DNA of 31,406 nucleotides from a virus (IMGVR_UViG_3300031602_000018:1-31406); one strand, 5' to 3'. Counted from the first letter of the stretch, positions 2,594-22,654 are shown. Translations and numbers: made by a program. The notes: generated by a model not told the origin, from the letters alone.

Positions 2594-3232
2594 ATGGCTA
2601 TAAAATTTAGAGCAAATAAAACACAAGCGTTAACATACGCAGAGATGGATACCAACTTAGGTAGCTATTTCTATTCAAGCTCGTTATCTGGCACTAACCT
2701 GTATTTACATTATACAGGAAGCCAAAACGTTCCAATCAATCAATCATCACATATTGTACCATTAACTGCAGGACAAGTTCAAGGACCTATCTACAGTGTA
2801 CAGTATAATGAGAATGGAGGAGCGTCTGGATCATCAGCATTTATTCATAGTGGATCTAGTGTAGGGATTAATACCACAGTAGCAGACTTAACACATGCTT
2901 TAGAAGTTTCAGGAAGCATTAGAGCTTCAGGAGCCCTACTTTCTAATTCAGATGAAAGACTAAAGGAAAATATTTATGCTATAGATAATCCGTTAAATAA
3001 ACTTAAACAAATACAAGGAGTATACTTTAATTGGATAGGCAAAGAAGATAGAGAAGTTGGATTTATAGCACAACAAGTACAAAAAGTACTTCCAGAAGTT
3101 GTCGTTGAAGATAAAAAATCTTATCTTTCTGTAGACTACAGTAAGGTTGTTCCTTTGCTAGTAGGTGCTATACAAGAGCAAAATGATCTTATTAAAGGCT
3201 TACAGTATAGAATAAACAAATTAGAAAAATAA
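2594..3232 (+). CDS. Short tail fibre protein with C-terminal S74 intramolecular chaperone
   Basis: This 212-aa protein begins MAIKFRANKTQALTYAEMD, an N-terminal motif shared with the next gene and recalled from marine T4-like fibre proteins; it probably attaches the fibre. The C-terminal ~95 residues are an S74 peptidase/chaperone domain: SDERLKENI at residues 119-127, the GFIAQQVQKVLPEVV helix, a VDYSKVVPLLVGAIQ segment and a coiled-coil end. S74 domains drive trimerisation and then self-cleave using a Ser-Lys dyad, here expected at S119 and K124. The stop overlaps the next start by one base (TAATG). The fibre part between anchor and chaperone is only ~90 residues. Confidence 0.88.
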   Translation: MAIKFRANKTQALTYAEMDTNLGSYFYSSSLSGTNLYLHYTGSQNVPINQSSHIVPLTAGQVQGPIYSVQYNENGGASGSSAFIHSGSSVGINTTVADLTHALEVSGSIRASGALLSNSDERLKENIYAIDNPLNKLKQIQGVYFNWIGKEDREVGFIAQQVQKVLPEVVVEDKKSYLSVDYSKVVPLLVGAIQEQNDLIKGLQYRINKLEK

Positions 3233-5205
3233 TGGGATTAATATTTAGAGCACAGAAAGGATCTGCACTAACTCATACAGAGCTAGATAATAACTTTAGA
3301 GAAGCATTTGTATCTGCATCAGTAGAAGGTACAGACTTATCATTGTTTACCTCAGCAGCTTTGAACAACGAGTATGTTCTACCTATGCCTGCTCCTAATG
3401 GATTCGATTACCATATACAGTTTAAAAAAGGTAACGAAATATCAGGTTCAGAAGTATCATTTTCTTCTTCAGCTGATTTCAAATACGATTTCAGAACCTC
3501 TCATTTAAAGAATACAGGTTCATTTACTAACTTAGGGGATGCTACAGTAGACGGTAACTTAGTTGTTACAGGAGTATTAACAGCACAAGAACTAAGAACA
3601 GAATTTAATAACGCATCAGTAGTATTTGACTCTGGCTCTACCAAGTTTGGAAACTCAGCAGATGATAAGCATAGCTTTACAGGAAGCCTAGTTGTAGTAG
3701 GAAGTATTACAGGATCAGATGCAACGATTGATACTTGGGGAAGTATATCAGGATCATTAGCATCTAATCTTACAACAACAATAGCATACTCTGCATCTAT
3801 TGCCTCAGCCTTAGACACAGAAATTACAGCACTATCTAGCTCAGCAGCATCAGCACTTACAACAACAAGTGGATCTATATCTACAGACGTAACTGCTCTA
3901 TCATCCTCTTTAGCACTTAGAATTAGCAATGGGGATACTGCAGTCAACAATAACGTTACAGCACTATCTAGCTCAGCATCAGATGAAAGAGATAGAAGAA
4001 TTACTGCTCTTACAAATACAGTAACAGCCAACTACCTACTAAATACAACAGATACTCTAGTAGGAGACTTAACAGTAACAGGTAATATAAATGCACAAGA
4101 AATCAATACTACGTATATTTCTTCTTCAATACTATTCAACTCAGGTTCTAATATCTTTGGAGATTCAAATACTGATAAGCACATATTTACAGGTAGTATT
4201 GATGCTACTAGTATTGTTAAGTCAACAGATGTTAATATAACAGGTTTCACCTCTGTATCGTCATCACTTGCCTCTCTAACAACCGACCTAGGTAACGTAT
4301 CAACATCTTACCCGGACATTACTAATAAACCAGCCGGTATCATAAGCTCATCAGTCTTTAGTTCACCTAGTCAAGGTACAGCTAAACTAACCAGCAATGC
4401 AGCAGCTACTACTATAGATTTAGGATTAGACTCTTCTGATTCACCAACATTTACTGATTTAACATTAAATGGATTTACATCTGTATCTTCATCCTTAGCA
4501 GCACTAACTGCTGGTACTATAACAATAGGAAACGATGTAGACAATAGAGTATTAACTGCTAATGGAAACAGTACATTAAATGGAGAAGGTAATTTAACAT
4601 TTGACGGAACTAACTTAATAATAGGTGGATCTCAAATATCTGATTACACCTCAGCTAAAACAGATGTAACCGGACTTACAGGAGGTACTACTAACGGTAC
4701 ATTAATACAAGGAAAAGAACTAGGTCATTTAGTTTTAGGTATTAGAGGAAATGCTACTGATGATACATTTAGTATTCTATCTGGAGATGGAGACTTCTAT
4801 TCAAACAGTACATACGATAAATTAGCTTTTCAAGTAAAAGCAAACGGAACAACTATAATAGGAGGAGGAACAACCATAAACGGTAACTTATTAGTAACCG
4901 GAGATGTTACAGCATACCACTCCTCAGATAAAAGATTAAAGGATAATATATCACCAATTCCTTGGGCAGTAGATAAAGTAAAAGCTCTTGGAGGATATAG
5001 TTTTGATTGGAATGATAAATCAGAACATGAAGGTCACGACATTGGGGTAATAGCTCAAGAGGTAGAAGAAGTTCTACCAGAATTAGTTGTGACTAGAGAA
5101 GACGGCTACAAAGCTGTTAGTTACGAAAAAATTGTCGCGTTATTAATTGAGGCGATCAAAGATCAACAGTTACAAATCGATGCGTTAAAATCTAACCAGC
5201 GCTAG
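3232..5205 (+). CDS. Long tail fibre protein with repeated modules and C-terminal S74 chaperone
   Basis: This 657-aa protein starts MGLIFRAQKGSALTHTELDNN, the same attachment motif as its upstream neighbour. The middle holds two related modules: GNLVVTGVLTAQELRTEFNN with DSGSTKFGNSADDKHSFTGS, and GDLTVTGNINAQEINTTYIS with NSGSNIFGDSNTDKHIFTGS. Between them are Ala/Ser/Thr repeats (TALSSSA) typical of trimeric fibre shafts. The S74 domain spans about residues 562-650, with SSDKRLKDNI (S565, K570), IGVIAQEVEEVLPELVV and a final helix. It should fold as a trimer and release its chaperone by self-cleavage. It is probably a receptor-binding or host-range determinant. The reverse-strand open frame here is a by-product of the repetitive composition. 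Confidence 0.88.
   Translation: MGLIFRAQKGSALTHTELDNNFREAFVSASVEGTDLSLFTSAALNNEYVLPMPAPNGFDYHIQFKKGNEISGSEVSFSSSADFKYDFRTSHLKNTGSFTNLGDATVDGNLVVTGVLTAQELRTEFNNASVVFDSGSTKFGNSADDKHSFTGSLVVVGSITGSDATIDTWGSISGSLASNLTTTIAYSASIASALDTEITALSSSAASALTTTSGSISTDVTALSSSLALRISNGDTAVNNNVTALSSSASDERDRRITALTNTVTANYLLNTTDTLVGDLTVTGNINAQEINTTYISSSILFNSGSNIFGDSNTDKHIFTGSIDATSIVKSTDVNITGFTSVSSSLASLTTDLGNVSTSYPDITNKPAGIISSSVFSSPSQGTAKLTSNAAATTIDLGLDSSDSPTFTDLTLNGFTSVSSSLAALTAGTITIGNDVDNRVLTANGNSTLNGEGNLTFDGTNLIIGGSQISDYTSAKTDVTGLTGGTTNGTLIQGKELGHLVLGIRGNATDDTFSILSGDGDFYSNSTYDKLAFQVKANGTTIIGGGTTINGNLLVTGDVTAYHSSDKRLKDNISPIPWAVDKVKALGGYSFDWNDKSEHEGHDIGVIAQEVEEVLPELVVTREDGYKAVSYEKIVALLIEAIKDQQLQIDALKSNQR
3824..3978 (+). 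repeat. Direct repeat pair inside the tail fibre gene
   Basis: A 23-base sequence beginning TTACAGCACTATCTAGCTC occurs at 3824-3846 and again at 3956-3978, 132 bases apart and in the same reading frame (TALSSSA). It encodes repeats of the Ser/Ala-rich shaft. Near-identical DNA repeats like this permit in-frame expansion or contraction of the fibre by recombination. Confidence 0.8.
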
Positions 5206-5220
5206 ACAAAAATCAAAAAT

Positions 5221-5700
5221 ATGGAAATGACATTACCGAATTGGTTACACCAAGGGAGAATGGTCACAGATATTTCGGACATGCCAGAGGGTACGTTCGG
5301 GTTCATCTATGAAACAAAACACATTCCCTCAGGTATTAAATACATTGGAAAGAAAGTACTTTTCTTTGAACGTAATAAAAGATTAGGAAAAAGAGCATTA
5401 GAAGCATTAAGATTAGAAAGAAAAGAAAAAGGGATAGGAGGTAGAACTCCTGCTAAGCAAAAGATAATTACTGAATCCGATTGGAAAGATTATTACGGAT
5501 CTCATAAGGACATATTAAAATTAGTTAAAGAAGGTGACGTAAGAGACTTTACTAGAACAATCCTACAATTTGTTCCTACAAAAAAGCTTCTTACTTATTT
5601 CGAGTGTAAACATCTGTTTATTAGAGAAGCACTAGAGACTCAAGACGTATATATTAATGATAACGTCTTAGGTAAATTTTATAGAAAAGATTTTAAATAG
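5221..5700 (+). CDS. GIY-YIG-like endonuclease (Seg/homing type)
   Basis: This 159-aa protein shows the layout of phage GIY-YIG nucleases. GFIYETKHIPSGIKYIGKK (residues ~27-45) supplies the two short motifs (FIY and YIG). A basic helix follows with several Arg (RNKRLGKRALEALRLERK). SDWKDYYGSHKDI is the typical W-x-x-Y-Y-G-S element, FECKHLFIREAL supplies the conserved Glu, and NDNVLGKFYRKDF closes the protein. Small stand-alone nucleases of this kind occur in T4-like phages, either as free-standing homing endonucleases or as domesticated genes. It sits in a short gap between the fibre and glycosyltransferase genes, a position consistent with an inserted mobile gene. The sequence before the ATG is A-rich without a Shine-Dalgarno motif. 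Confidence 0.75.
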   Translation: MEMTLPNWLHQGRMVTDISDMPEGTFGFIYETKHIPSGIKYIGKKVLFFERNKRLGKRALEALRLERKEKGIGGRTPAKQKIITESDWKDYYGSHKDILKLVKEGDVRDFTRTILQFVPTKKLLTYFECKHLFIREALETQDVYINDNVLGKFYRKDFK

Positions 5701-5723
5701 TGAATAACTTGCCTCCATAAAGT

Positions 5724-5750
5724 ATTTTTCGTATATTTAATGTATAAATT
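5724..5750 (+). promoter_or_regulatory. Candidate promoter upstream of the glycosyltransferase cassette
   Basis: ATTTTTCGTATATTTA at 5724-5739 recurs exactly at 12094-12109, before the lipoprotein gene, and in near form at 16601-16616. Here it is followed by TATAAATT at 5743-5750, close to the T4 late-promoter core TATAAATA, ending 17 bases before the TTG start. The 67-base gap is among the largest in the window. Promoter function is inferred from recurrence and position. Confidence 0.45.
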
Positions 5751-5767
5751 TAAAAGATACACATCTA

Positions 5768-7333
5768 TTGAAGACATTTATAATCACACTATTACAGAAT
5801 AATAACTCAGTTGAATCAGCAAAAAGAGCAAGACAATCAGCAGTAGATGTAGGTTATAGAGAGTCAATTGAAACATTTGAAGCTATAACCCCTGACCTAT
5901 GGGAAGAGATTCTACCCTATGACAATAACTTTGATAATTATGCAAGACCAGACAATGTTGGAGCATGCTTTGCTTCACACTATCTTCTCTGGCAAAAATG
6001 TATTGAGCTAGGAGAGCCTATTTTAATTTTAGAACATGATGCAATATTTGTAGATAACATACCAGATATAGATTTTGATATGTGTGTTAATTTCGGTAGA
6101 CCCAGCTACATAAGACCGTATGAAATGACATATAAGGAGCCAATAGAAGGACTACAGTCAACCATACAGCATCATTTCTTAGGTCACCATGCTTATGCTA
6201 TTAAACCACAAGCAGCTAAAATACTATGTAATGATGTTAAATATAGAGAGCTATCGCCAAACGATATATGGATGAATCTAGCCACTTACCCCTGGTTACA
6301 GGAGTATATACCTTATCCAATAGTAGCCGATACTTTATTCTCTACTATCCAAACATCTTTAGATGAAGCTACTCCCGTAATTAAAAAATTTGCTGAGGTT
6401 ACTAAACCAAACAGTCCGGAACGAGCTTATGTAGAAAAATATTTTCCTCAAGTACTAACTCCTCAATCACAGAGACATATAGAAGCTGTACCGAGGAAAG
6501 AGAACTTTGTTGAAATAAGACCAGGATACCTGCAGGATGATATCTATACATGGATGCAAAAACCTATCGAGAATAATAAATACCTTATAGTAAGTTGGCG
6601 ACTGTCCGGATCAGAATTTGGTAAAGAAGTATTAAGAGAGAATTTTCCTGAAGTAGTCTCTCAAGACCTCTGGGCAAAAACTCATACTACTTTAGGAGAA
6701 AATATTACTAAACCTTTCATCGAGAAAGCTAAAACTAAAGTATTTGTAATAATTACAGATCCTAGAGAAATAGCAATGAATTTAATATACTTCGATAACC
6801 GAATACATCTGCATGATATAGATTATGAAAATGTATTTTTTGATACTTTTAAATCTGTTAAGTTTTTAAACGAAATAGCTCAAAAACAATTAAACTTAAT
6901 CAGCCACTACAGAGAGGTCTTTGGAGATAATTGTGCCGTATTAAGATACGAAGATGCAGTACATAATCAAGAAGCTTTTTTAGAACACGCTTCTAATGTA
7001 CTAGGAGTTGCCCCTTTAGGTATTGACGATGCTAAAAAGTATAAACGTTCAATATATAAGAATGTAGGAGATTTCGCACAATTTTTTGATAAAGAAATAT
7101 TAGATAAACATTCTGAAGACTACCAATGGTTCTACGACGAATACGGGTATGGAAAACAAGGGTTACAGCACCTTAGATATGACTGGCACAGTGGTAGTTC
7201 TTCTTATTTCGAAGCAACAGACAACTATAAAGATATGTTAAAACGAAACGGTGTGAGACTAATTAATGACTGCTGCTTTACCTATCCAGATAAGGGACTG
7301 TATAATAGAACAAAAAATATAAATGGATTCTAA
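5768..7333 (+). CDS. Bifunctional GT25-like glycosyltransferase / sulfotransferase-like protein
   Basis: This 521-aa protein has two recognisable halves. Residues 1-~200 resemble family 25 (LPS-type) glycosyltransferases: N-terminal strand KTFIITLLQNNNS, a GACFASHYLLWQKC segment, and an acidic LEHDA motif (E89, D91) where the family has EDD. Residues ~271-450 resemble sulfotransferases: YLIVSWRLSGSEFGKE in the place of the PAPS 5'-phosphosulfate loop, FVIITDPREIAMN as the 3'-phosphate strand, and VLRYEDAVHNQEAFLEH. The start is a TTG; it is preferred because the glycosyltransferase first strand begins immediately after it. The last 11 bases overlap the next gene. It probably glycosylates and/or sulfates a virion or cell-surface polymer; the substrate is unknown. 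Confidence 0.72.
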   Translation: MKTFIITLLQNNNSVESAKRARQSAVDVGYRESIETFEAITPDLWEEILPYDNNFDNYARPDNVGACFASHYLLWQKCIELGEPILILEHDAIFVDNIPDIDFDMCVNFGRPSYIRPYEMTYKEPIEGLQSTIQHHFLGHHAYAIKPQAAKILCNDVKYRELSPNDIWMNLATYPWLQEYIPYPIVADTLFSTIQTSLDEATPVIKKFAEVTKPNSPERAYVEKYFPQVLTPQSQRHIEAVPRKENFVEIRPGYLQDDIYTWMQKPIENNKYLIVSWRLSGSEFGKEVLRENFPEVVSQDLWAKTHTTLGENITKPFIEKAKTKVFVIITDPREIAMNLIYFDNRIHLHDIDYENVFFDTFKSVKFLNEIAQKQLNLISHYREVFGDNCAVLRYEDAVHNQEAFLEHASNVLGVAPLGIDDAKKYKRSIYKNVGDFAQFFDKEILDKHSEDYQWFYDEYGYGKQGLQHLRYDWHSGSSSYFEATDNYKDMLKRNGVRLINDCCFTYPDKGLYNRTKNINGF

Positions 7334-8903
7334 AAAAAATGTTATAGTAGTCTCTGCTAGAAGAAGCGGAACACATTTACTTACAGATTTAGTAGTAAAT
7401 AATTTCGGGTACGAAAGCATCAACTACAACTATATTGACTACACTGGGTTTACTCCTGAAAATTTTAGTGAGTTTGAAACAGCTATGAACGAGGGTAGTT
7501 ACTCTTATAAACAGCCTTATGTCAATCATCCAAAGGTTACTTGGACTCATGCACATGACTATAAAGATTATTTAAAATATAAACACAGCAAAGAAACTAA
7601 CACCCAACTTGATAGATTCTTCTCAGAATCTAAAATTATTATTATCTATAGAGATATTAGAGACATAATAAATTCATGCTACCATAGACCAAGATATAAA
7701 GACAATTACAGCTCCTTCACAGACTTCTACGATAACTACGATATGGATGGTTATGAATTAATTGACCAACAATATGACAACTTATCTGAACTATTAATAC
7801 AGTACTATAAGAATTGGTTCTCTGTATATATGAGCAAAGAGCTTTTAGGTCTCGATATAGAGTTAATATCTTTTAAAGAAGTAATTAATGAATATGAAGC
7901 ATCAGTATATAAGATTGGAAAATTTTTAGAGCAGCCAATAAATACTAGCTTACCAGTTGTAGATGTTAGATTAAAATCTATTTCTGAGAAAAGCAAAGAT
8001 GTTATTTATACAGATAATGACTTTAGAAAAGGAAAGGTAGGAGATTGGGTTAATGGAATTGGAAAAGAATTAGGGGATGCAATAGGTAAACAATATTATA
8101 CTGATTTAGGTGCAGGTTTCGATTGTTTTACAAATGATATAAAAATACATAAATATCATACACCAGAAAGAAATAGATTTGAACTAGGATATAAAGATTG
8201 GCCTTCTATAGAAAAAGAGATTGATGAAGAACTAAAGCAGTATGATAGTAGATATAAACTTGATAAAAGCTGTCAGTCCATTATAGAAAATAGATATACG
8301 AATGCAATTGAAACAGCAACTGATTTTAGATATACCCACAAAGTATTCTATTTTGAAGATAACTTATTAAAATTTATATATCCATGCAAAGCAAGTTTAG
8401 ATAAGAACATATTTAAACATACAGTACCTGTGGCTTCTAAAGAGCTCCTATTAACAATTTATAAAACAGATAAATTTCTATACGAAAATGGAATAACTCC
8501 AAAACTCTTCCATGCTGGTGTATATAAAGGAGTCTTATATGCTATACAAGAAAAATATCCAATGGGTGATGTAATCTCTGAAAAATATAAACTTCATCCT
8601 ATATGGGGAGATTGGAAATGGGTTGTAGATTTAGATTTATATGTAAAGCTACTAAGACATTTTACCGTAGCATTTAAAAACAACATACTATTAACTGATA
8701 TATTTAACGTATATAATTGTGCAATCGACAATGATGGAAATGTAAAGTACTTTGACCTTGACGGAATCAAACAATACACCACACATAAAGAAATGATCAA
8801 CTCAGAAGAGTTTACTAATGTAATGGGCACATTAAAGGAAATAGACAATTACCACATTAAAAAATTCAACTATAGTTTATTAAAAGAATTAATAGTAATA
8901 TGA
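7323..8903 (+). CDS. Sulfotransferase fused to a kinase-like domain
   Basis: This 526-aa protein opens with NVIVVSARRSGTHLLTDL, a clear PAPS 5'-phosphosulfate-binding loop (S15-G-T-H18). IIIIYRDIRDIINSCYH follows, matching the 3'-phosphate-binding strand, then a helical region with VYKIGKFLEQPI as expected for sulfotransferases. From about residue 335 the sequence changes character: KVFYFEDNLLKFIYP, GVLYAIQEKYPMGD and a C-terminal FNVYNCAIDNDGNVKYFDLDG (N462/N465, D478/D480). This order resembles a small-molecule or protein kinase fold with Asn and Asp as metal ligands. It overlaps both neighbours (11 and 4 bases), so the three genes are probably translated together. The kinase-like half is a weaker call than the sulfotransferase half. 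Confidence 0.72.
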   Translation: MDSKKNVIVVSARRSGTHLLTDLVVNNFGYESINYNYIDYTGFTPENFSEFETAMNEGSYSYKQPYVNHPKVTWTHAHDYKDYLKYKHSKETNTQLDRFFSESKIIIIYRDIRDIINSCYHRPRYKDNYSSFTDFYDNYDMDGYELIDQQYDNLSELLIQYYKNWFSVYMSKELLGLDIELISFKEVINEYEASVYKIGKFLEQPINTSLPVVDVRLKSISEKSKDVIYTDNDFRKGKVGDWVNGIGKELGDAIGKQYYTDLGAGFDCFTNDIKIHKYHTPERNRFELGYKDWPSIEKEIDEELKQYDSRYKLDKSCQSIIENRYTNAIETATDFRYTHKVFYFEDNLLKFIYPCKASLDKNIFKHTVPVASKELLLTIYKTDKFLYENGITPKLFHAGVYKGVLYAIQEKYPMGDVISEKYKLHPIWGDWKWVVDLDLYVKLLRHFTVAFKNNILLTDIFNVYNCAIDNDGNVKYFDLDGIKQYTTHKEMINSEEFTNVMGTLKEIDNYHIKKFNYSLLKELIVI

Positions 8904-9835
8904 AACTAACTAAAAATACACTAGGGAGTAAGATAAAAGAGGTTAAATTTAATCTTCAAAACTTTGGAGCAGATACTATTTACGTAATACATGACATTAA
9001 AAAACCTCAACGCCGTATAGATTTTGAACATGCCTGGAGCCACTTCTCTGGTTTTAAATACGAATACATAGATGCAGTTACACCAGATGACTTCAACCTT
9101 AAAGAGCTTATTGAGAATGAAAGCGTAGGAGAATTTTCTCTCGGAAAAGAGTTTCATGACTCAGTAGATTTATGTTTAACTAAAAATATACTTGCTATAG
9201 CTTTTTCTCACCTTAGAGCTTATCGAGCATGTAATACGTTAGAAAAAGGAGATAGGTTTCTTATATTAGAAGATGATGCAAGACCAACCGTAGGGCTAAT
9301 GAACAGTATATATACAGGAGAATATAAAAAATTTATAGACGGAATTAAAAAGAGAACATTTGATTGGATATTCATAGGCACTGCTAATAGTATAATAAAA
9401 GGACAAGACTATAATAAGTTTTTAAAAAGACCGGAGAACTTTACAGGGTTAGCAGCACATGCTGTATTATATACTAGAGATTCAATAAATAGGTTAGTAG
9501 ATAACCATAGCACAGTAAAGATGGCTGCAGATTTTTTACTTCACCATTTAAACAGTAACACAACGTTTCCTAATGTGTATTCCCCATATGTATCTTGGAT
9601 TAGTCAAGTACATACTCAACTAGAGAATAATATATTAGATCCAAATAATCCCGACTATGAATACTCAACCGGGTCTCAAGTTAATCCCCTAGTTGATAAA
9701 GTATTAGAAGGTCATCCGCATTTAGCAAAAGAATTAGTTCCTTATATACATCTAGATTATTTTGAAAAAAAGAACCACGCAGGACCCTTAATAAAAATTA
9801 AATGGATAACACCAGTAAATAAGCTCCTGCAATAA
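8900..9835 (+). CDS. GT25-like glycosyltransferase
   Basis: This 311-aa protein begins about residue 27 with IYVIHDIKKPQRRIDFEHAW, the first strand and basic patch of GT25 enzymes. YIDAVTPDDF, then SHLRAYRACNTLEKGDRFLILEDDARP follow, with the canonical Glu-Asp-Asp motif at residues 124-126. FDWIFIGTANSI and a later GLAAHAVLYTRDSINRLVD also fit the family (GTxAYxIS-like segment). It is closely related in plan to the N-terminal half of the first cassette gene, suggesting duplication within the cassette. It overlaps the preceding gene by four bases (ATGA). The likely role is sugar transfer to a cell-surface or virion glycan. Confidence 0.8.
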   Translation: MKLTKNTLGSKIKEVKFNLQNFGADTIYVIHDIKKPQRRIDFEHAWSHFSGFKYEYIDAVTPDDFNLKELIENESVGEFSLGKEFHDSVDLCLTKNILAIAFSHLRAYRACNTLEKGDRFLILEDDARPTVGLMNSIYTGEYKKFIDGIKKRTFDWIFIGTANSIIKGQDYNKFLKRPENFTGLAAHAVLYTRDSINRLVDNHSTVKMAADFLLHHLNSNTTFPNVYSPYVSWISQVHTQLENNILDPNNPDYEYSTGSQVNPLVDKVLEGHPHLAKELVPYIHLDYFEKKNHAGPLIKIKWITPVNKLLQ

Positions 9836-9842
9836 ATTGAGC

Positions 9843-9850
9843 TATTTATA
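9843..9850 (+). promoter_or_regulatory. Candidate promoter box TATTTATA before the mini-kinase gene
   Basis: TATTTATA lies 14 bases before the preferred ATG at 9865, the same spacing as the copy before the lipoprotein gene. The box runs directly into an ATG at 9850; using that codon would give an 8-residue larger protein with no leader sequence upstream. The later ATG is preferred for that reason and because it begins MKLTSIILYE. Confidence 0.45.
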
Positions 9851-9864
9851 TGAAAGATAATAAA

Positions 9865-10308
9865 ATGAAATTAACAAGCATAATTCTATATGAAGGTATA
9901 GAATACGATCCAGCATTCAACAAACTAGTTGATGCTATCAAAGATGCTGGAGGTATATATAAAGGTTCAGGCGATTACGGATCGGTTTACTTTTTAAAAG
10001 GTAAGGCTGTTAAAGTAACAACAGATGGAGACGAATTAGATCATGCTGAAATAATTAAAGGTAAAAAGACAAATAATTTTGTACATATATTTGATGTTAT
10101 AAGACATGACGACCGTTTAGGAGTAATAACAATGGAGATACTTTCAGAGCTAGATAACCCAGAAGCAGAGATAACAGAAGAATTTATCACAGCCCTAGAA
10201 GCAGAAGCTAATAGACTAGGAATACCAGCAGATGAATTAGACCTTACTCATGATGGTAACTTTATGAAGCATCCAAAATCTGGCAAGCTAAAACATATTG
10301 ACGTATAG
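9865..10308 (+). CDS. Minimal kinase-like protein with N-terminal capsid-targeting-like leader
   Basis: Taking the ATG at 9865 gives 147 aa starting MKLTSIILYE. This leader ends in L-Y-E at residues 8-10, matching the T4 capsid-targeting pattern cut by gp21 after (I/L)-x-E. The remainder has the order of kinase motifs in miniature: glycine loop GSGDYGSVYF (G34-V41), AVKV lysine K50, acidic helix with E57/E62, hinge-like VITMEIL, then LTHDGNFMKHPKSG (H129, D130, N132) and a final HIDV with D146 in the DFG/metal position. The protein ends right there, so there is no activation segment or C-lobe. Kinases truncated this way may still bind ATP. The function is inferred from motif order only; a pseudokinase is possible. 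Confidence 0.6.
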   Translation: MKLTSIILYEGIEYDPAFNKLVDAIKDAGGIYKGSGDYGSVYFLKGKAVKVTTDGDELDHAEIIKGKKTNNFVHIFDVIRHDDRLGVITMEILSELDNPEAEITEEFITALEAEANRLGIPADELDLTHDGNFMKHPKSGKLKHIDV

Positions 10309-10329
10309 TAGGTTTATAACTTTATTGTT

Positions 10330-10342
10330 CTTATATTATAAG
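10330..10342 (+). promoter_or_regulatory. 13-base palindrome/A+T box upstream of the primase gene
   Basis: CTTATATTATAAG is a perfect inverted repeat (6-1-6) in the 54-base gap before the primase ATG at 10363. The preceding TTGTTCTTATATTATA loosely resembles the TTTTCGTTATATTTATA element found at 16603-16618. It could be a promoter -10 region or an operator. Nothing else is recognisable in the gap. Confidence 0.3.
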
Positions 10343-10362
10343 ATAATAGTTACGGACAATAT

Positions 10363-11289
10363 ATGGATTATACATTTTTACTAGGGACCCTAGAGAATAT
10401 ACTAGGCAAGAGTCACAAGAGAGCCCGAGGCAATCATGCATTTAATTGCCCTTTTTGTAATCATAGAAAGCCTAAATTAGAGATAAACATGGCTACTAAT
10501 GAAGAAGGAAAGAACTTCTGGGAGTGCTGGGTATGTCAAGCTAGAGGTACTACAATACGGTCTCTTTTATTTCAATTAAAAACACCAACAGATCAAGCAT
10601 CGGAAGTAATGAAATACTTACCGAAAGGATCTAGTTATAATTATACACCCACAGAATCAGTACAACTACCAAAAGAGTTCCAGTTATTATATGAAGCTAC
10701 AACTACATCAATAACAGCAAACAAAATAAGAAAATACTTATATGAAAGAGGACTTACCGACAATGATTTTATTAAATATGGTATTGGATACTGTACAAGT
10801 GGAGACTATGGAGGACGAATTATTGTCCCAAGTTATAATGCATCCAACCAACTCAATTTTTTTGTTGCAAGAAGTCATGATGGAAACTACTTTAAATATA
10901 AAAACCCTGAAGCTTCGAAAGATATAATATTCTTTGAAAACCTCATTAACTGGAAGCAGCCCGTAGTACTATGTGAAGGAGTGTTTGATGCAATGGCAAT
11001 AAGAAGAAATGCTATACCCATATTAGGAAAAGCAATAAGTGATGAATTACAGAAGAAACTATTAAAGAGCTCAGTACAAGACATATACATTGCATTAGAT
11101 AGTGATGCAGTTAAGAAAGCTATTGAATATACAGAAAAGTTTATTAATTTAGGTAAACGGGTCTACCTAGTCAACCTTAAAGAGAAAGATCCTAGTGAGA
11201 TGGGTTTCAATGCATTCACTCACTTAATACAGACAGCAGAAGAGGTAACACTAAATACTCTGATGCGTTACAAACTAGAATCAATATGA
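10363..11289 (+). CDS. DnaG/gp61-type DNA primase
   Basis: This 308-aa protein has an N-terminal zinc-finger domain (FNCPFCNHRKP with C29, C32, H34, and WECWVCQARG with C55, C58). A TOPRIM catalytic core follows: VVLCEGVFDAMAIRR (E205, D209) and IYIALDSDAVKKA (D246, D248). The linker IKYGIGYCTSGDYGGRIIVPSY is the primase N-core element that contacts template. At ~310 aa it is about the size of T4 gp61 and much shorter than cellular DnaG, lacking the helicase-binding C-terminus. It synthesises RNA primers for lagging-strand replication, normally with a phage helicase not seen in this window. The stop overlaps the next ATG by four bases. Confidence 0.92.
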   Translation: MDYTFLLGTLENILGKSHKRARGNHAFNCPFCNHRKPKLEINMATNEEGKNFWECWVCQARGTTIRSLLFQLKTPTDQASEVMKYLPKGSSYNYTPTESVQLPKEFQLLYEATTTSITANKIRKYLYERGLTDNDFIKYGIGYCTSGDYGGRIIVPSYNASNQLNFFVARSHDGNYFKYKNPEASKDIIFFENLINWKQPVVLCEGVFDAMAIRRNAIPILGKAISDELQKKLLKSSVQDIYIALDSDAVKKAIEYTEKFINLGKRVYLVNLKEKDPSEMGFNAFTHLIQTAEEVTLNTLMRYKLESI

Positions 11290-12068
11290 TTAGACAAGGT
11301 ACCAACATTCTCAAAGAGAATGCAAAGAAAAGATTAGATTTTAATCCGGAACTAAAGCAGATTAATTTCTTAGATAGAAGAGTTTACAAGAGAGGCGAAG
11401 GAGTGTTTTACCCGTCCGTAACAACCATACTCCAGTATATGCCCAAGAATAAGTTTTTTGACAATTGGTTAAAAGATGTTGGGCATAACGCCGATCTTAT
11501 TATGAGAAAAGCAGGTAAAGAAGGTACACAGGTTCATGAAGCAGCAGAAAGATTAGTATTAGGAGAAGAAATATCATGGATGGATGACTACGGAAATGCT
11601 AAATACTCTCAATTAGTATGGTCGATGATATTAAAATTCGCAGACTTTTGGAAAACTCATAAGCCTGAACTAATCTCTACAGAACAATTTATATGGTCAG
11701 ATGAACATAAGTATGCTGGGACAGCAGATCTTGTAGTAAAGATGGACGGTGAAGTTTGGTTATTAGACCTAAAGACTTCTAATAATCTACACAGGTCATA
11801 TGATTTACAATTAGCAGCTTATGCTAAAGGTATGGAAGAAGTTAGAGGGCAGAAAATTGAACGTACAGGTATAATCTGGTTAAAAGCTCAGTCTAGAGGC
11901 CCGTCTAAACAAAAAGGAGTGTACCAAGGTAAAGGATGGAAGATTAAAACTATTGATAAGATAGAAGAAAACTTTGAATTGTTCCAAACTATATATAAAT
12001 TATACAAGTTAGATCACCCTACAACAGAGCCGTTATACCACTCATATCCTACTACTATCAAAATATAA
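11286..12068 (+). CDS. PD-(D/E)XK nuclease, RecB/Cas4-like
   Basis: This 260-aa protein carries the RecB-type nuclease motifs in order: EGTQVHEAAERL (H84), STEQFIWSDE (E133), YAGTADLVVKMDG (D148), VWLLDLKTS (D161-x-K163) and YDLQLAAYA (Q175, Y179). These form the metal site of the PD-(D/E)XK fold and the Q-x-x-x-Y motif typical of RecB/Cas4-like nucleases. There are no four-cysteine Fe-S ligands as in classical Cas4, so it is better read as a phage recombination/replication exonuclease. It is translationally coupled to the primase, which supports a DNA-replication or recombination role. Confidence 0.88.
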   Translation: MIRQGTNILKENAKKRLDFNPELKQINFLDRRVYKRGEGVFYPSVTTILQYMPKNKFFDNWLKDVGHNADLIMRKAGKEGTQVHEAAERLVLGEEISWMDDYGNAKYSQLVWSMILKFADFWKTHKPELISTEQFIWSDEHKYAGTADLVVKMDGEVWLLDLKTSNNLHRSYDLQLAAYAKGMEEVRGQKIERTGIIWLKAQSRGPSKQKGVYQGKGWKIKTIDKIEENFELFQTIYKLYKLDHPTTEPLYHSYPTTIKI

Positions 12069-12125: not shown

Positions 12126-13046
12126 ATGAAGTTACAATTTAGATTATTAGTAGTAGTAGTAGTATTAACGTTATTGACTGGATGCGGTTCATTTAAAGTA
12201 TCTACATTAAACTATGACCCAATCTATGATGGAAAAGGAAATGAAATTAAAATTAATGTTGTTAGTAATGAGTTCGAATTAGAAAGTTTACTCAGAAACG
12301 ACTTTAACTTTAGATACAACTTCGGACAGTACGCTAAAATACAACCTTATGGTTCATTTATAAACAATAGGTATTTTAGGAACTTTAGAAGAGCAAATGG
12401 TTATCCGTTCTATGCATCATTCAGGAACCAAGACCAGTTCTGGGATGCTTGGATATGGGACTACCCTTTTTATAATAATAGTTCATTCGGTATGGGCTGG
12501 TCTTATAGTTGGAATAACAGAAGATGGTCATCTAACCAATGGGGCAATCCTTATGGTTGGAATAACTATTATGGATGGGGCAACGGATATAACCACTACA
12601 ACAATTGGAATAACCGAGCTAATTATAATAATAGAAGGAACATTTCTTATATTAATGGAAGAAGAGGTTCTACTGTATCTACCGGCACCGTAGGAAGTAC
12701 CGTAGTTAATATAAGACCAAGAATAGAAAGTAGCATAGATAAAGCTACTAGACAACTTAGAGATAAGAATATAGAAGTAAGAGTAATAAATAACCCGAAT
12801 AATAATGATCAAACTATCAGACTTAATACTAGAAGCAACACCAGGTCGTCCGAAAGCGGTAATAATGGCGGGAGGAGCAGGGTCAGGCAAAACATACCTC
12901 CTACAACAGTTATCCCTAGACAGTCTAGAACAATTCAACCCCGACAAGTACATAGAAGACCCAGCACATCAGTACCACAACAACCTAGGAGCAGCAGCCA
13001 AACAAACAACAAAGGACGTACAAGCAGCAGCAGTAAACAAAACTAG
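12126..13046 (+). CDS. Trp/Tyr/Asn-rich phage lipoprotein; 3' end overlaps the next gene by 242 bases
   Basis: This 306-aa protein starts MKLQFRLLVVVVVLTLLTGC, a basic N-terminus plus hydrophobic core and lipobox LTGC (C20), so it should be a lipid-anchored envelope protein made during infection. Residues ~100-170 are extraordinarily rich in W, Y, N, G and F (repeats like YGWNNYYGWGN). The C-terminal ~80 residues are a basic Arg/Ser/Gln/Pro/Thr low-complexity tail. I associate lipoproteins with this YDPIYDGKG opening and aromatic middle with Bacteroidota and their phages. The last 242 bases are shared with the kinase gene in another frame. Phage lipoproteins often block superinfection; that role is possible but not shown. 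Whether the full overlapping tail is made depends on the codon-bias evidence reported separately. Confidence 0.78.
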   Translation: MKLQFRLLVVVVVLTLLTGCGSFKVSTLNYDPIYDGKGNEIKINVVSNEFELESLLRNDFNFRYNFGQYAKIQPYGSFINNRYFRNFRRANGYPFYASFRNQDQFWDAWIWDYPFYNNSSFGMGWSYSWNNRRWSSNQWGNPYGWNNYYGWGNGYNHYNNWNNRANYNNRRNISYINGRRGSTVSTGTVGSTVVNIRPRIESSIDKATRQLRDKNIEVRVINNPNNNDQTIRLNTRSNTRSSESGNNGGRSRVRQNIPPTTVIPRQSRTIQPRQVHRRPSTSVPQQPRSSSQTNNKGRTSSSSKQN

Positions 13047-13746
13047 CTTTGTTTGGGATACTACAGCATCAGGAGTTGGATTTGATAAGACATTAGTACA
13101 GCTACTAGAAGCTAAGTTCGACATTTACATGGTGATGGTGTATTCTCATCCAATGATATCTTACATAAGTAATTTTGCAAGAGGAAGAAATGTACCAAGA
13201 ACTGCAGTATTCTCTACTTGGAGAAACGCTTACCAGAAGATAGGAGAGTTTAATCAAAAACTTAATGGGCAGATGTCTATATTTGTTAACGACTTTGGCG
13301 GTAAGTATGATGAACCAATTGAAGCATTTAATGCAGCAGCAAAGAAAGGTACTTCCGGAATTAAAGAATACTTAAATAAATATAACCAAGAAAACGGTAT
13401 AGGAGGATCATCCTTCTTTAAACCAGTAGTAATGGATAAAACAACAGAAGAGGAATTTATTAAACACGTTGGCAGTGTACAGTGGGATAAAGAGAATCGC
13501 TCAGAAGACAAAGCCATTAAAAATACATTCATAAAGTTTTACGAAAAGAACGGAGTAGGTCCAGGAGCAGACAAATTAGAAGCCGCAGTTACTAAATATA
13601 GAGACGGAAAAGTTAAACAAGACGCTAAAGATGCAGAAATATTAGATAATATTGCTGAAATGATTTACAGTCCTCTTTTTCAAGAAAAACTACAACATTC
13701 TACTCCTCAGGAGATAGATTCTAAATTACAATCTTTCTTAGCATGA
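12805..13746 (+). CDS. Zeta-toxin-like P-loop kinase with capsid-targeting-like leader
   Basis: This 313-aa protein starts MIKLSDLILE|A, with I-L-E at residues 8-10, the position of the gp21 cleavage motif in T4 internal proteins. A Walker A loop follows at once: AVIMAGGAGSGKTYLL (residues 23-30). FNPDKYIED (D47) and SFVWDTTASG (D85) fit the zeta-toxin/polynucleotide-kinase group, as does ARGRNVPRTAVFSTWRNAY, a basic phosphate-binding region. Zeta enzymes phosphorylate UDP-amino sugars; relatives phosphorylate nucleic-acid ends or small molecules. The first 80 codons overlap the lipoprotein gene in another frame. The stop overlaps the next ATG by four bases, so it is coupled to the nucleotidyltransferase. 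The substrate is unknown. Confidence 0.8.
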   Translation: MIKLSDLILEATPGRPKAVIMAGGAGSGKTYLLQQLSLDSLEQFNPDKYIEDPAHQYHNNLGAAAKQTTKDVQAAAVNKTSFVWDTTASGVGFDKTLVQLLEAKFDIYMVMVYSHPMISYISNFARGRNVPRTAVFSTWRNAYQKIGEFNQKLNGQMSIFVNDFGGKYDEPIEAFNAAAKKGTSGIKEYLNKYNQENGIGGSSFFKPVVMDKTTEEEFIKHVGSVQWDKENRSEDKAIKNTFIKFYEKNGVGPGADKLEAAVTKYRDGKVKQDAKDAEILDNIAEMIYSPLFQEKLQHSTPQEIDSKLQSFLA

Positions 13747-15488
13747 TAGCATTATATCCCGGAGCTTTTAAACCACCTCATAGAGGACACTTTAACGTCG
13801 TTAAGTCTTTACTTGATGGATCTTATAGTGGAGCAATATACGACAAAGATAACTATAAAGAAAAAGGTACAGACATACTTGGTGGCTCTGATGGTGAAAA
13901 ACCTGAGATTGATAAGGTTATTGTATTTGTAGGAGGAGGGGAGAGAAACGGTATAACAAAGGATGAGGCGATGTCTATATGGAAAATATATGGACAGAAA
14001 TTAGGTAATGTAGAGATACTAGACGGAGAGAAGAATCCAATGTTTGCAGCAAAAGATTATGCACAAGCTAACCCGGATACTGCCTTCGCAGCAATTACCG
14101 GAATAAGAGGAGATGCAGACTTCGTAGACTTACGAAGAATTACTACATTTAAAAATGCTCCTAATGTTAAAGGTTTAGCATTCGCAGCAGCACCAGACAG
14201 TAAAGTAAGAGCAACTGACTTTAGAAAAAGTATTTTAGATGGTAATTTAGATCAAATTATAGACTTTTTTCCTAAAGAATTAGGAAGAGAGGAAATATTA
14301 GACATACTTACAGGATTAAAAGATAAAATTGTAGCAGAAGTAATAGCTAGTAACATAGGAGGATACTTAACAGAATGGTTTGCCAAAGAAGAAATAGAAA
14401 GACCAGAAGGGATTCCACCAGAAACTACAAAAGAAAATAGACCAAGCTATACAGAACATATTGGCTCTATTATTGAGTATATGCTTGATACTGGTATGAA
14501 TATACAACCTTTACCGGAAATTAAAGTTAGAGAGGATGAAGAGAATGCTAAAAAATTCTTCGGTAAGACTGCTTATTACGACCCTAACAGTAAAGAAATT
14601 GTACTTTATGCTACGGGAAGACATCCTAAAGATATATGTAGATCCTTTGCTCATGAAATGGTTCACCATATTCAGAACATAGAAGGAAGGTTACATAATG
14701 TTCAAACACAAGATACTACTAGTGATTCTGCTTTAATGGATTTAGAAAAAGAAGCTTATACAGTAGGTAACATTACATTCAGAAATTGGGAAGACGATCT
14801 TAAAAAACGTCATAATACAAAAGACGAAAAAAAAAAGGTAATGGCAGAAGGGAAGTACGACAAGATAGCTAATACTCTTTCAGCCGTAGCATTTGAGACG
14901 TATAAAAAAGCATATGATGCAGGCAAAAAAGAAATTAGCATAACCTTTAGAGTAGGTAATCCAGAACACGATGAGGTAGATATCCCATCTTTACAGTTCG
15001 AATTTGACTTAGAAATATACGGAGAATTCACAGAAGACACTTATAAGGTAGATGGAGGAGCAAATGCTGGATTTGATAACGAAGGAGATGAGATACAACC
15101 TATGATTAGTTTGAAGTTTCAAATTCCTACAAAACCTGATTGGCAAGAAATATCTTTTGACTTAAAAGACGTAGTAAGACATGAATTAGAGCACTTAACT
15201 CAAGACGGTGAAAATACTAGACCCGGTAAGTACATAGAAGATGATGCAATAGTGAGAGGCTTAATTGATATGGATCTAATGGATAAAGACGAGTACTACA
15301 ACCTACCAAAAGAGGTAGATGCTATGATACACGGCATGTACTTTAAAGCTAAGAAATCTAAAACACCATTTACGGATGTAGTACAAGATTATTTCGAAAA
15401 AGCTGGCGTAGAGTTGGAGAATAGAAAGAAAATTCGTATCTTATGGAATAAACGCCTACCTAAATTAGGCATAAAACAAAGGTTATAA
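13743..15488 (+). CDS. Nucleotidyltransferase fused to two zincin-like (HExxH) segments
   Basis: In this 581-aa protein, residues 1-~190 form an HxGH-type nucleotidyltransferase: IALYPGAFKPPHRGHFN (H13-R-G-H16), KVIVFVGGG, then PDSKVRATDFRK in place of the ISxTxxR motif. This superfamily moves AMP or CMP onto phosphorylated small molecules (NMN, phosphopantetheine, glycerol-phosphate). A second part has SFAHEMVHHIQNIEG (H304, E305, H308), a zinc-protease-type helix followed by ...DLEKEAYTVGN. A third part has VVRHELEHLTQDGE (H480, E481, H484), again HExxH. The junction around residues 360-370 (KKKVMAEGKYDK) separates the two. The start overlaps the kinase stop and the end overlaps the phosphatase start by one base. 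Metal-dependent peptidase activity is inferred from the motifs alone. Confidence 0.72.
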   Translation: MIALYPGAFKPPHRGHFNVVKSLLDGSYSGAIYDKDNYKEKGTDILGGSDGEKPEIDKVIVFVGGGERNGITKDEAMSIWKIYGQKLGNVEILDGEKNPMFAAKDYAQANPDTAFAAITGIRGDADFVDLRRITTFKNAPNVKGLAFAAAPDSKVRATDFRKSILDGNLDQIIDFFPKELGREEILDILTGLKDKIVAEVIASNIGGYLTEWFAKEEIERPEGIPPETTKENRPSYTEHIGSIIEYMLDTGMNIQPLPEIKVREDEENAKKFFGKTAYYDPNSKEIVLYATGRHPKDICRSFAHEMVHHIQNIEGRLHNVQTQDTTSDSALMDLEKEAYTVGNITFRNWEDDLKKRHNTKDEKKKVMAEGKYDKIANTLSAVAFETYKKAYDAGKKEISITFRVGNPEHDEVDIPSLQFEFDLEIYGEFTEDTYKVDGGANAGFDNEGDEIQPMISLKFQIPTKPDWQEISFDLKDVVRHELEHLTQDGENTRPGKYIEDDAIVRGLIDMDLMDKDEYYNLPKEVDAMIHGMYFKAKKSKTPFTDVVQDYFEKAGVELENRKKIRILWNKRLPKLGIKQRL

Positions 15489-16027
15489 TGAGCAAAGTAA
15501 AATTAGTAGAACTTCTAAGTGAAGAAGAAAAGAAAGACATCTCACAGTATAAGATTTATTGTGATATGGATGGAGTATTAACAGACTTCGAAGAACGGTT
15601 TGACCACTTTACTGGTATGCACCCACAAGAATATGAAAAAAAATACGGTACTCCTGCTTTTTGGAACTTAATAGACGTAAAAATAGGATTAAGATTTTGG
15701 GCGGATATGAATTGGATGCCAGAAGGACAAAAACTCTGGAGTTTTATATCTAAATATAACCCTGATTTACTTACATCTCCATCTAGAGATAATACATCTA
15801 GATTAGGGAAAAATACTTGGGTCAAGAATAATATAGCATCCAGCCCTAAAGTAATATTTGCGTACTCTAAGTCAAAGCAGAAGTATGCAAATGAAAATAG
15901 TATATTAATAGACGATAAGCCTTCCAATATAGAGGAATGGACTGAATCTGGTGGAATAGCAATTAGATGTAAAAATGGCAACGTCACTGATGTAATAAGA
16001 AAATTAAAAGAACTTGGTTATGAGTAA
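15488..16027 (+). CDS. HAD-family phosphatase / 5'(3')-nucleotidase-like, with [L]xE leader
   Basis: This 179-aa protein has HAD motif I YCDMDGVLTDF (nucleophile D26, acid D28), motif II LLTSPS (T96/S97), basic residues around K108-K113, and motif IV ILIDDKPSNIEEW (D142, D143). The size, the tryptophan-rich cap (FWADMNWMPEG) and DMDGVLTDF fit the phage and bacterial 5'(3')-deoxyribonucleotidase group. That would place it in nucleotide salvage or dephosphorylation. The N-terminus MSKVKLVELLSEEE precedes the fold and contains L-V-E and L-S-E, compatible with a capsid-targeting leader, although weaker than in the other candidates. The ATG overlaps the preceding stop (TAATG), and the end overlaps the next gene by eight bases. 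Confidence 0.8.
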   Translation: MSKVKLVELLSEEEKKDISQYKIYCDMDGVLTDFEERFDHFTGMHPQEYEKKYGTPAFWNLIDVKIGLRFWADMNWMPEGQKLWSFISKYNPDLLTSPSRDNTSRLGKNTWVKNNIASSPKVIFAYSKSKQKYANENSILIDDKPSNIEEWTESGGIAIRCKNGNVTDVIRKLKELGYE

Positions 16028-20883: not shown

Positions 20884-22209
20884 ATGAATATAGAAGATAT
20901 AAAGAACGTAATTCTAGAAGCATTCGGAGAAGTAAGAGAAGAGAAAGAAACAGCAGATTCACCGGATACTCATAAGATTACAGATTTACCTAAATCCTTG
21001 CAGAAATCAATCACTGCAAGATACGGAGTAGGGAAATATCCTGAACGAGATTTTCTATCAAGTGATATGAAAACCTTATTCAGAACTATAAGTGTAGATA
21101 AGAACACAGGATCAGTAGGCCATAAAATAATCTCTCTTCCTTCTTTTAACGGACTATATAAAGATTACTCAGACATAATCGCTGATTTAAAAGAACTAAT
21201 GCGCTCTCCTGATATACAAAGAGATCAAAAAGCAAAAGACTTATTTGAGCTTATCAGAACTAACTTTAGAAAACTACAATCTTACTTAAGAACTGAAAGA
21301 CCAGAACAATACGAACTTATGAGAATGAGACGTAGTATGGAAGAAGCAGTTACTGGACTTAAAAGACTAAAATATGATAATCTAAATGAAGCTAAACAAG
21401 ACATATACGATAAATTTTTAGATAACCCATCTTCGCCAAAAGGTAGAGCAAAGGCATTGATATTAAAGTTTACAAAAGAATATGGAGATGATGCTTCATC
21501 AATGGCTGTAGATAGATTCGCTAGTAAAAACAACCTAAAACCTGAAGAAAAGTACATATTAAAATATATTACTAAAAACGATATTAAAATATCTTCACAA
21601 TCAGGAGGACCAGAATTCTCAGCAGTAAGTGAAGCAGCATACTTAAAAGAGCTTGAAAAAGAAGAACCGGCACCAGAAGAACCAGCAGACATGGACGCTC
21701 CAAAAGAGACAGTCCTAGAAGATGCTACTGATACCATCTTAGGTAAGTTTCCAACACTATCTAAAGCAATCATTAAATTACAAACTAAGCAATTTAGAGA
21801 ATTTGTTGACACAGTGGATTGGGTATCACCAAGACCATCATCATTCAGGGTTAACCTTAAAAATGGACAACACTACATCCTAAAATGGACTGGTACCGGT
21901 TTTGAAGCTCAAATAATGGGAAAGAGGTACTACATTGATAAAATAGACGATTACCAACAGGCATTAGATAAAATGACTAGACTCTATCAAGAAGGTCCAA
22001 TGTCAGGAGCAGGGGAAGCAGAAGCAGAAGACACCGGAGGTGGCGGAGGCGGAGGCGGGGACTTTCCTGGAGGAGAAGGTGGAGCCGAAGGCGGTGAAGA
22101 AGGAGAAGCAGGAGCAGAAATACCAGCAGGAGATGATGCACCAGCAGAACCAGCAGATTTAGGAGGAGAAGAAATAGACTTTGAAGACGGAGCAGAACCA
22201 GAAGCATAA
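20884..22209 (+). CDS. Acidic protein with capsid-targeting-like leader and Gly/Glu/Ala-rich tail
   Basis: This 441-aa protein starts MNIEDIKNVILE|AFGE, with I-L-E at residues 10-12. The body (residues ~40-230) is charged and helical (MRMRRSMEEAVTGLKRL, a basic KGRAKALILKFTKEYGDD segment). Residues ~300-370 form a compact beta region (SSFRVNLKNGQHYILKWTG, AQIMGKRYYID) that may be a small domain. The last ~70 residues are low-complexity Gly, Glu, Ala and Pro with a local run of GC-rich glycine codons. I recognise no enzyme. The acid-rich composition and the position two genes upstream of the terminase fit a prohead core or internal protein. It is separated from its neighbour by three bases. 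Confidence 0.68.
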   Translation: MNIEDIKNVILEAFGEVREEKETADSPDTHKITDLPKSLQKSITARYGVGKYPERDFLSSDMKTLFRTISVDKNTGSVGHKIISLPSFNGLYKDYSDIIADLKELMRSPDIQRDQKAKDLFELIRTNFRKLQSYLRTERPEQYELMRMRRSMEEAVTGLKRLKYDNLNEAKQDIYDKFLDNPSSPKGRAKALILKFTKEYGDDASSMAVDRFASKNNLKPEEKYILKYITKNDIKISSQSGGPEFSAVSEAAYLKELEKEEPAPEEPADMDAPKETVLEDATDTILGKFPTLSKAIIKLQTKQFREFVDTVDWVSPRPSSFRVNLKNGQHYILKWTGTGFEAQIMGKRYYIDKIDDYQQALDKMTRLYQEGPMSGAGEAEAEDTGGGGGGGGDFPGGEGGAEGGEEGEAGAEIPAGDDAPAEPADLGGEEIDFEDGAEPEA

Positions 22210-22219
22210 TAATAAAGAT

Positions 22220-22654
22220 ATGAAAGATAATTTTAACCTTAAGAGTTTTTTAACAGAGAATAACCTTACTGCTAATACTAGGAAAGGATTAAATGAAGAA
22301 GAAGGTGTTCCACATTATACTAAAGACGGTAAAGAATGGAAAGGTAAACTACATAAGATGCCTGACGGTTCACTAATGTCAGGTAAACCCCATGATGAAG
22401 GTGGAAGTGGTCCTAATGGTGAAAGTGAAAAACTATACCATAAAGAAGACTTGAAAGAACAAGAAGATTGGCAAGGAAAAGAATGGAAAAATAGAAAACT
22501 TTTAATTGAAGTAGTAGAAGGTCTTCAAAGAGAGCTAGAAGAAATAGAGGATGTTAAACTATGGGATGACCAAACATCAAATGACTGGTGTCATGATGCA
22601 ATTGAACAACTAACAGCAGCAGCACAAAGCATAATAGGAGAAAGAAAAGAGTAA
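22220..22654 (+). CDS. Small phage protein with [L]xE leader, unknown function
   Basis: From the ATG at 22220 this is 144 aa, beginning MKDNFNLKSFLTE|N, with L-T-E at residues 11-13. An upstream ATG at 22181 would overlap the previous gene and place the leader internally, so it is not preferred. The next segment YTKDGKEWKGKLHKMPDGS with SGKPHDEGGSGPNGESEKLYH looks like a small basic/Gly-rich beta unit seen, from memory, in other marine phage proteins. A helical C-terminus follows (LLIEVVEGLQRELEEIE and a Trp/Cys segment). No function is recognised. The clean leader supports capsid localisation. Confidence 0.62.
   Translation: MKDNFNLKSFLTENNLTANTRKGLNEEEGVPHYTKDGKEWKGKLHKMPDGSLMSGKPHDEGGSGPNGESEKLYHKEDLKEQEDWQGKEWKNRKLLIEVVEGLQRELEEIEDVKLWDDQTSNDWCHDAIEQLTAAAQSIIGERKE

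Follow-up and report, generated by a model that had tools for sequence, protein, structure and literature searches.

The stretch of viral DNA analysed here (IMGVR_UViG_3300031602_000018:1-31406, a virus record of 31.4 kb; all 31,406 nucleotides are hereafter called the window) carries a cassette of three overlapping plus-strand genes at positions 5768-9835. The first gene, g1 (5768-7333; TTG start, 521 amino acids), combines a GT25 glycosyltransferase domain with a sulfotransferase-fold domain; g2 (7323-8903; 526 amino acids) joins a sulfotransferase domain to a kinase-like domain; and g3 (8900-9835; 311 amino acids) encodes a second GT25-type glycosyltransferase. All three are open reading frames, overlapping by 11 bases (g1/g2) and 4 bases (g2/g3), and the local order is fibre genes, SegE-like gene, cassette, mini-kinase gene and primase gene. 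Both the domain content and the position between fibre and replication genes proposed in an initial annotation are thus borne out. The cassette genes are found again in other contigs, where identity is about 40-97%, and the ratio of nonsynonymous to synonymous substitution rates (dN/dS) is about 0.06-0.22 for the two parts of g1 (g1N and g1C), both parts of g2 and g3 when compared with relatives at 40-65% identity, values that are rough because synonymous sites are near saturation. Judged by these ratios, distant pairs of the genes are under purifying selection, and recurrence together with low dN/dS argues that the genes are not chance open reading frames. A foreign origin was considered from base composition and set aside, as a GC content of 28-35%, slightly low in g2, is not diagnostic.

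The N-terminal domain of g2 (7323-8147, plus strand) matches PF00685 (Sulfotransfer_1) with 43.7 bits against a cut-off of 22, and the match recurs in 11/11 aligned g2 members. It contains an ARRSGTHLL 5' loop and a YRDIRDIINS 3' motif, and the residues that hold the sulfate donor 3'-phosphoadenosine-5'-phosphosulfate (PAPS), namely R14-S15-G16-T17, R110 and S118, are invariant in the 11 aligned proteins, which share 52-95% identity. The domain therefore has the profile score, the (R/K)SGT 5' loop and the 3'-phosphate Arg and Ser of a PAPS sulfotransferase. A low-confidence structural model fits the SULT fold with a Z score of about 10, the nearest solved structures being small-molecule SULTs. 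Taken together, the g2 N-terminus appears to be a working-looking PAPS sulfotransferase, as predicted from these features. The C-terminal domain (8223-8903, plus strand) is protein-kinase-like: K350, D459, N465, D478 and D480 are invariant in the same 11 proteins, which makes them candidates for the kinase-type Lys, catalytic Asp, Asn and DFG-like Asp, and the match to the FAM69/DIPK kinase-like domain (PIP49_C) is weak and partial, seen in 4/11 members with a best E value of 9e-4. Structure searches with g2 returned lists filled by the sulfotransferase domain. The idea that this domain is an adenosine-5'-phosphosulfate (APS) kinase making PAPS within the same protein was rejected, since the translation has no P-loop motif. 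When g2 of the window is compared with its near copy L004, the differences cluster in a short patch around residues 245-270, a pattern suggestive of local recombination.

The two halves of g1 differ in how closely they follow their families. Residues 1-240 (g1N; 5768-6487, plus strand) match PF01755 with 45.2 bits against a cut-off of 24, and their model resembles the GT25 beta-1,4-galactosyltransferase 8xkd (Z 16.9) and COLGALT1 (Z 13.5), so that both Pfam score and fold place g1N in GT25. The remainder, g1C (6488-7333, plus strand), scores 14.3 bits against the Pfam sulfotransferase profile, under the cut-off of 22. Its model, with a predicted local distance difference test (pLDDT) score of 74, finds tyrosylprotein sulfotransferase-2 (3ap2) as top solved match (Z 14.7, root-mean-square deviation 4.2, 197 residues aligned) and SULTs at a Z of about 12, and its profile matches the g2 sulfotransferase domain at an E value of 1e-6. 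The model thus clearly predicts a sulfotransferase fold for g1C, nearest the tyrosylprotein sulfotransferases. In contrast to TPST1/TPST2, g1C has lost the residues with which sulfotransferases grip PAPS, namely the basic one at the 5' site and the Arg and Ser that contact the 3'-phosphate. With positions placed from the profile alignment to g2, the 5' basic residue is replaced by Leu/Met, the Arg by Thr/Ser and the Ser by Asn in all relatives aligned, and the former PAPS sites read VSWR(L/M)(S/A)GSE and (T/S)DPR(E/D)xxxN. Other positions are retained: the Lys and His of K-[ST]-H, the (R/K)YED motif with its Tyr-Glu-Asp, a Trp that is invariant in relatives, and Gly-Ser-Glu, which is kept in four divergent members. 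Because of the three replacements we do not class g1C as a PAPS sulfotransferase; the best reading is a conserved partner domain, or a user of a donor other than PAPS. The initial annotation had called the g1 domain sulfotransferase-like and the g2 domain a sulfotransferase, and had named conserved presence with loss of PAPS-loop residues as the observation that would undo its proposal. That pattern is what g1C shows in every relative, whereas g2 keeps all its PAPS residues, so by that yardstick the claim stands for g2 and falls for g1C.

By itself g3 has no Pfam match, yet PF01755 is matched by 6/8 aligned g3 members, and the g3 profile matches mimivirus R655 (9crz, E value 4e-6) and COLGALT1, with E values of 4e-6 to 6e-5 over these matches. 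EDDAR at residues 124-128 is invariant. The two GT25 partners resemble LPS (lipopolysaccharide) GT25 enzymes, COLGALT1 and mimivirus R655 in different respects, g1N by fold and Pfam score and g3 by profile and EDDAR motif, and g1N differs from them by its fusion to g1C in the window lineage. The nearest match to g1N in sequenced phages, at about 30% identity, is the group of phrog_61 GT25 regions in 2-oxoglutarate (2OG)-Fe(II) oxygenase proteins of marine Synechococcus phages; GT25 domains do occur in T4-like cyanophages within proteins annotated as 2OG oxygenases, and there they are paired with the oxygenase annotation, not with a sulfotransferase as in g1. The idea that the GT25s act on collagen-like Gly-X-Y repeats was rejected, since none of the loci examined has seven or more such repeats in a row.

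The cassette occupies a slot whose content changes among relatives. Its left border, outside the cassette, is a SegE-like GIY-YIG gene (5221-5700, plus strand; PF19835, 80 bits) that is conserved in relatives, and its right border is a DNA primase gene (10363-11289, plus strand; phrog_47, 157 bits). In 69 loci with both borders, some of them near copies of one another, the intervening stretch measures about 1.4 to 6 kb, and alongside small genes some relatives have there another GT25, an Asp/Asn beta-hydroxylase, or genes with weak matches to 2OG oxygenases, DUF6734 or methyltransferases. Viral loci with g2 number 20, of which three are near copies of the window and 17 are other viral contigs, and a g1C domain lies directly upstream of g2 in every one (20/20). 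The GT25s are optional, as five loci carry the pair without g1N (L105, L106, L107, L114 and L116). A single gene encodes both GT25 and g1C in the window lineage, in L100-L103 and in L113, and two separate genes do so in L104, L108-L111 and L115; fusion in two lineages and separation in others is the pattern expected of functionally linked proteins. Relatives of g2 were not found in 50,697 sequenced phages, PHROGs or NCBIfam. A cellular origin of g2 was also considered, and two pattern scans of bacterial genomes gave no relative, although with few and short patterns absence is not proven. As a separate observation, in L111 the last fibre gene is followed by three additional genes (2802-4912) before the SegE-like gene is reached, one of them with a weak DUF6734 match.

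Upstream of the SegE-like gene stand two fibre genes, fibA and fibB (2594-5205), with S74 chaperone ends, and the presence of the GT25s follows the fibre allele. Among complete fibA sequences, identity to the window is 66-73% in GT25-bearing phages and at most 53% in the rest, whereas primase identity to the window is 70-76% in nearly all relatives. In the fibA tree a single, fully supported clade takes in all seven GT25 rows, whereas the primase tree places the window lineage on a long branch away from the remaining GT25 phages. A single GT25 clade on one tree and not on the other indicates that the fibre block and the GT25s move together. The variable slot, sometimes filled with other modifying genes, and this co-variation agree with the surface-modification role first suggested for the cassette.

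We tentatively propose, at somewhat below even probability, that the locus is a swappable surface-tailoring cassette in which glycosylation falls to the GT25s, sulfation and probably phosphorylation to g2, with g1C assisting and the phage's own fibres as the most likely target. The cassette would be expressed within the infected cell, where the two GT25 enzymes would attach to an acceptor a sugar that, judging from the enzyme family, is galactose-like. The sulfotransferase domain of g2 would then move sulfate from host PAPS onto that acceptor, and the fused kinase-like domain would probably phosphorylate the same or a neighbouring one. As the upstream partner of g2, g1C might present the acceptor, dimerise, or use a donor other than PAPS. 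The likeliest acceptors would be the tail-fibre or adhesin proteins of the phage itself, so that exchanging the cassette would alter the encounter between fibre and host; this target is favoured because of the position of the slot, its content in relatives and the co-variation with fibA. Such a cassette predicts sulfated or phosphorylated glycans on virion fibres. A stricter version, which we regard as unlikely, holds that g1C and g2 depend on each other as an obligate two-protein machine: a protein of sulfotransferase fold that keeps K-[ST]-H and no longer grips PAPS would work with a sulfotransferase-kinase fusion to place sulfate and phosphate, or the group of another donor, on phage adhesins. 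If true, this machine would be a new kind of post-translational modification of the virion.

Several observations weigh against a fibre-directed cassette. The association of GT25s with fibre type comes from about five GT25-bearing lineages, and as the genes are neighbours, plain linkage could explain it; the sulfotransferase pair is less tied to the fibre, since L105 and L114 have it together with another fibre type. A 128-kb contig, whose TerL (large terminase) is 56% identical to that of the window and which we accordingly treat as a more distant relative and no longer as an unrelated phage, has the cassette at a different locus, in a glycosyltransferase island with no recognised fibre gene beside it. 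The g2 model is of low confidence (pLDDT 59). Lastly, the 57.8-kb sister contig and a 94-kb contig with only the pair, both of them fragments, yielded no APS-kinase gene, which means that PAPS would come from the host. Twelve further relatives likewise gave no APS kinase, and PF01507 (PAPS reductase/CysD type) was absent in the search for a phage PAPS supply. The 128-kb relative and the L092 contig do have APS-kinase-like genes, and phage-made PAPS was nevertheless rejected, as these genes score 74 and 58 bits, far under the equivalog cut-off of 139, and lie near a nucleotidyltransferase-like gene; by sequence they may act on another nucleotide. In two relatives the divergent APS-kinase-like gene lies near or beside a small nucleotidyltransferase-like gene (L125, 4743-5216 with 6024-6377; L126, 7032-7460 with 7450-7800), and such genes could be a source of PAPS or of some other nucleotide donor with a 3'-phosphate. 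L126, a relative without the cassette, has a sugar island at 3250-11925 with glycosyltransferase-like genes, a nucleotide-sugar dehydrogenase and a WecB-type epimerase.

Between the virion fibre and the host surface we lean to the fibre, with the host envelope a close rival. The same enzymes could possibly modify a host surface glycan (LPS or capsule), for instance to block superinfection or the binding of progeny to debris, as in serotype-converting phages. GT25 includes LPS glycosyltransferases, as the name of PF01755 reflects, the pair is found with more than one fibre type, the 128-kb relative has its cassette within a glycosyltransferase island, and the nucleotide-sugar dehydrogenase and WecB-type epimerase of the L092 contig indicate that the group makes sugar precursors. 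A host glycan as target would, however, not account for GT25 presence following the fibre clade, the cassette has no flippase or polymerase gene, and a T4-like, presumably lytic phage would gain less from such a change than a prophage. Sulfation of a small molecule or an auxiliary role in host metabolism, with no surface target at all, is improbable to us, even though the solved structures nearest the g2 sulfotransferase domain are small-molecule SULTs and other phage sulfotransferases have been catalogued as auxiliary metabolic genes (PMC8290583); the GT25s and several slot neighbours are of macromolecule-modifying types, g1C is nearest the protein tyrosine sulfotransferases, and the GT25s are linked to the fibre allele.

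The most doubtful of the alternatives takes g1C for a dead pseudoenzyme domain and the cassette for a moron mosaic without joint function. Loss of all three canonical PAPS-gripping residues and the gain and loss of cassette genes speak for it. Against this, the same replacements are kept at 40-50% identity and low dN/dS together with the invariant Trp, Gly-Ser-Glu, the K-[ST]-H Lys and His and Tyr-Glu-Asp, and g1C never changes its place and order next to g2. Two readings, a pseudoenzyme partner and an altered donor, can be set against each other through the conserved absence of the PAPS residues.

Phage sulfotransferases have been described before. They are reported in OM43 phages and in Synechococcus phage S-SRM01, where the passages dealing with them call the role unclear (PMC10580990), and in glacier-ice viruses (PMC8290583). 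The rarity of such enzymes in phages, stressed in the initial annotation, fits the g2 family and is less apt for sulfotransferases as a whole. Like g2, the OM43 and S-SRM01 genes are phage-encoded sulfotransferase domains of unclear role, but they are Sulfotransfer_3, and those passages mention no paired degenerate domain or kinase fusion (PMC10580990). In comparison with PAPS sulfotransferases at large (Sulfotransfer_1, SULT), g2 is alike in 5' loop, 3'-phosphate Arg and Ser and fold, and differs by its kinase-like fusion, forming a family of its own without a match in PHROGs, NCBIfam or sequenced phages. New are the fusion of sulfotransferase and kinase-like domains, the degenerate partner that always accompanies it, and their setting in a swappable cassette on the fibre side; this paired architecture was absent from the databases searched. 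The enzyme is accompanied here by linked GT25s, a fixed partner domain and a kinase-like fusion in a swappable slot beside the fibres, with GT25 content following the fibre allele. A further suggestion, that the cassette mimics marine sulfated polysaccharides, found no support in this analysis.

Sequence comparison places this marine phage among the Immutovirus-like, T4-type phages, as a relative of one that infects Flavobacterium. Its TerL and primase share 77% and 64% identity, respectively, with those of Flavobacterium phage vB_FspM_immuto (genus Immutovirus, Baltic Sea), and the order around the slot is the same in both: fibres, SegE-like gene, variable genes, primase and exonuclease. Since TerL, primase and gene order all match immuto, the host is probably a flavobacterium. 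Where the window has the cassette, immuto has eight small hypothetical genes. The SegE-like gene (5221-5700) bears an NAD synthetase label in immuto and phrog_447, yet Pfam gives it a SegE GIY-YIG endonuclease domain (80 bits); a homing-type nuclease next to the slot may drive exchange of its content. Searches of the window for RNA families and tRNAs found none. Directly after the cassette, g4 (9850-10308, plus strand) encodes a 152-amino-acid mini protein kinase-like product matching phrog_15752 (T7 0.7-type kinase) at an E value of 7e-5; it is optional in relatives, its cluster being found in 18 slot loci.

Many late-region proteins of the window phage have an N-terminal motif in common (hydrophobic-x-x-hydrophobic-hydrophobic-x-Glu), present in 21-25% of open reading frames as against 1% of internal stretches. 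Carriers in the window are 12805-13746, 15488-16027, 20884-22209, 22220-22654, 22659-23780 and g4 (9850-10308), where the spacing is one residue longer, and L017 is similar in this respect. The motif resembles the T4 capsid-targeting sequence, and by that analogy numerous proteins may be packaged and injected by phages of this group, the mini-kinase g4 perhaps among them. A candidate for injection into the bacterial host is encoded at 12805-13746: its product resembles zeta-toxin ATPases (PF06414, 35.8 bits; cut-off 22.3) and has a capsid-targeting-like N-terminus.

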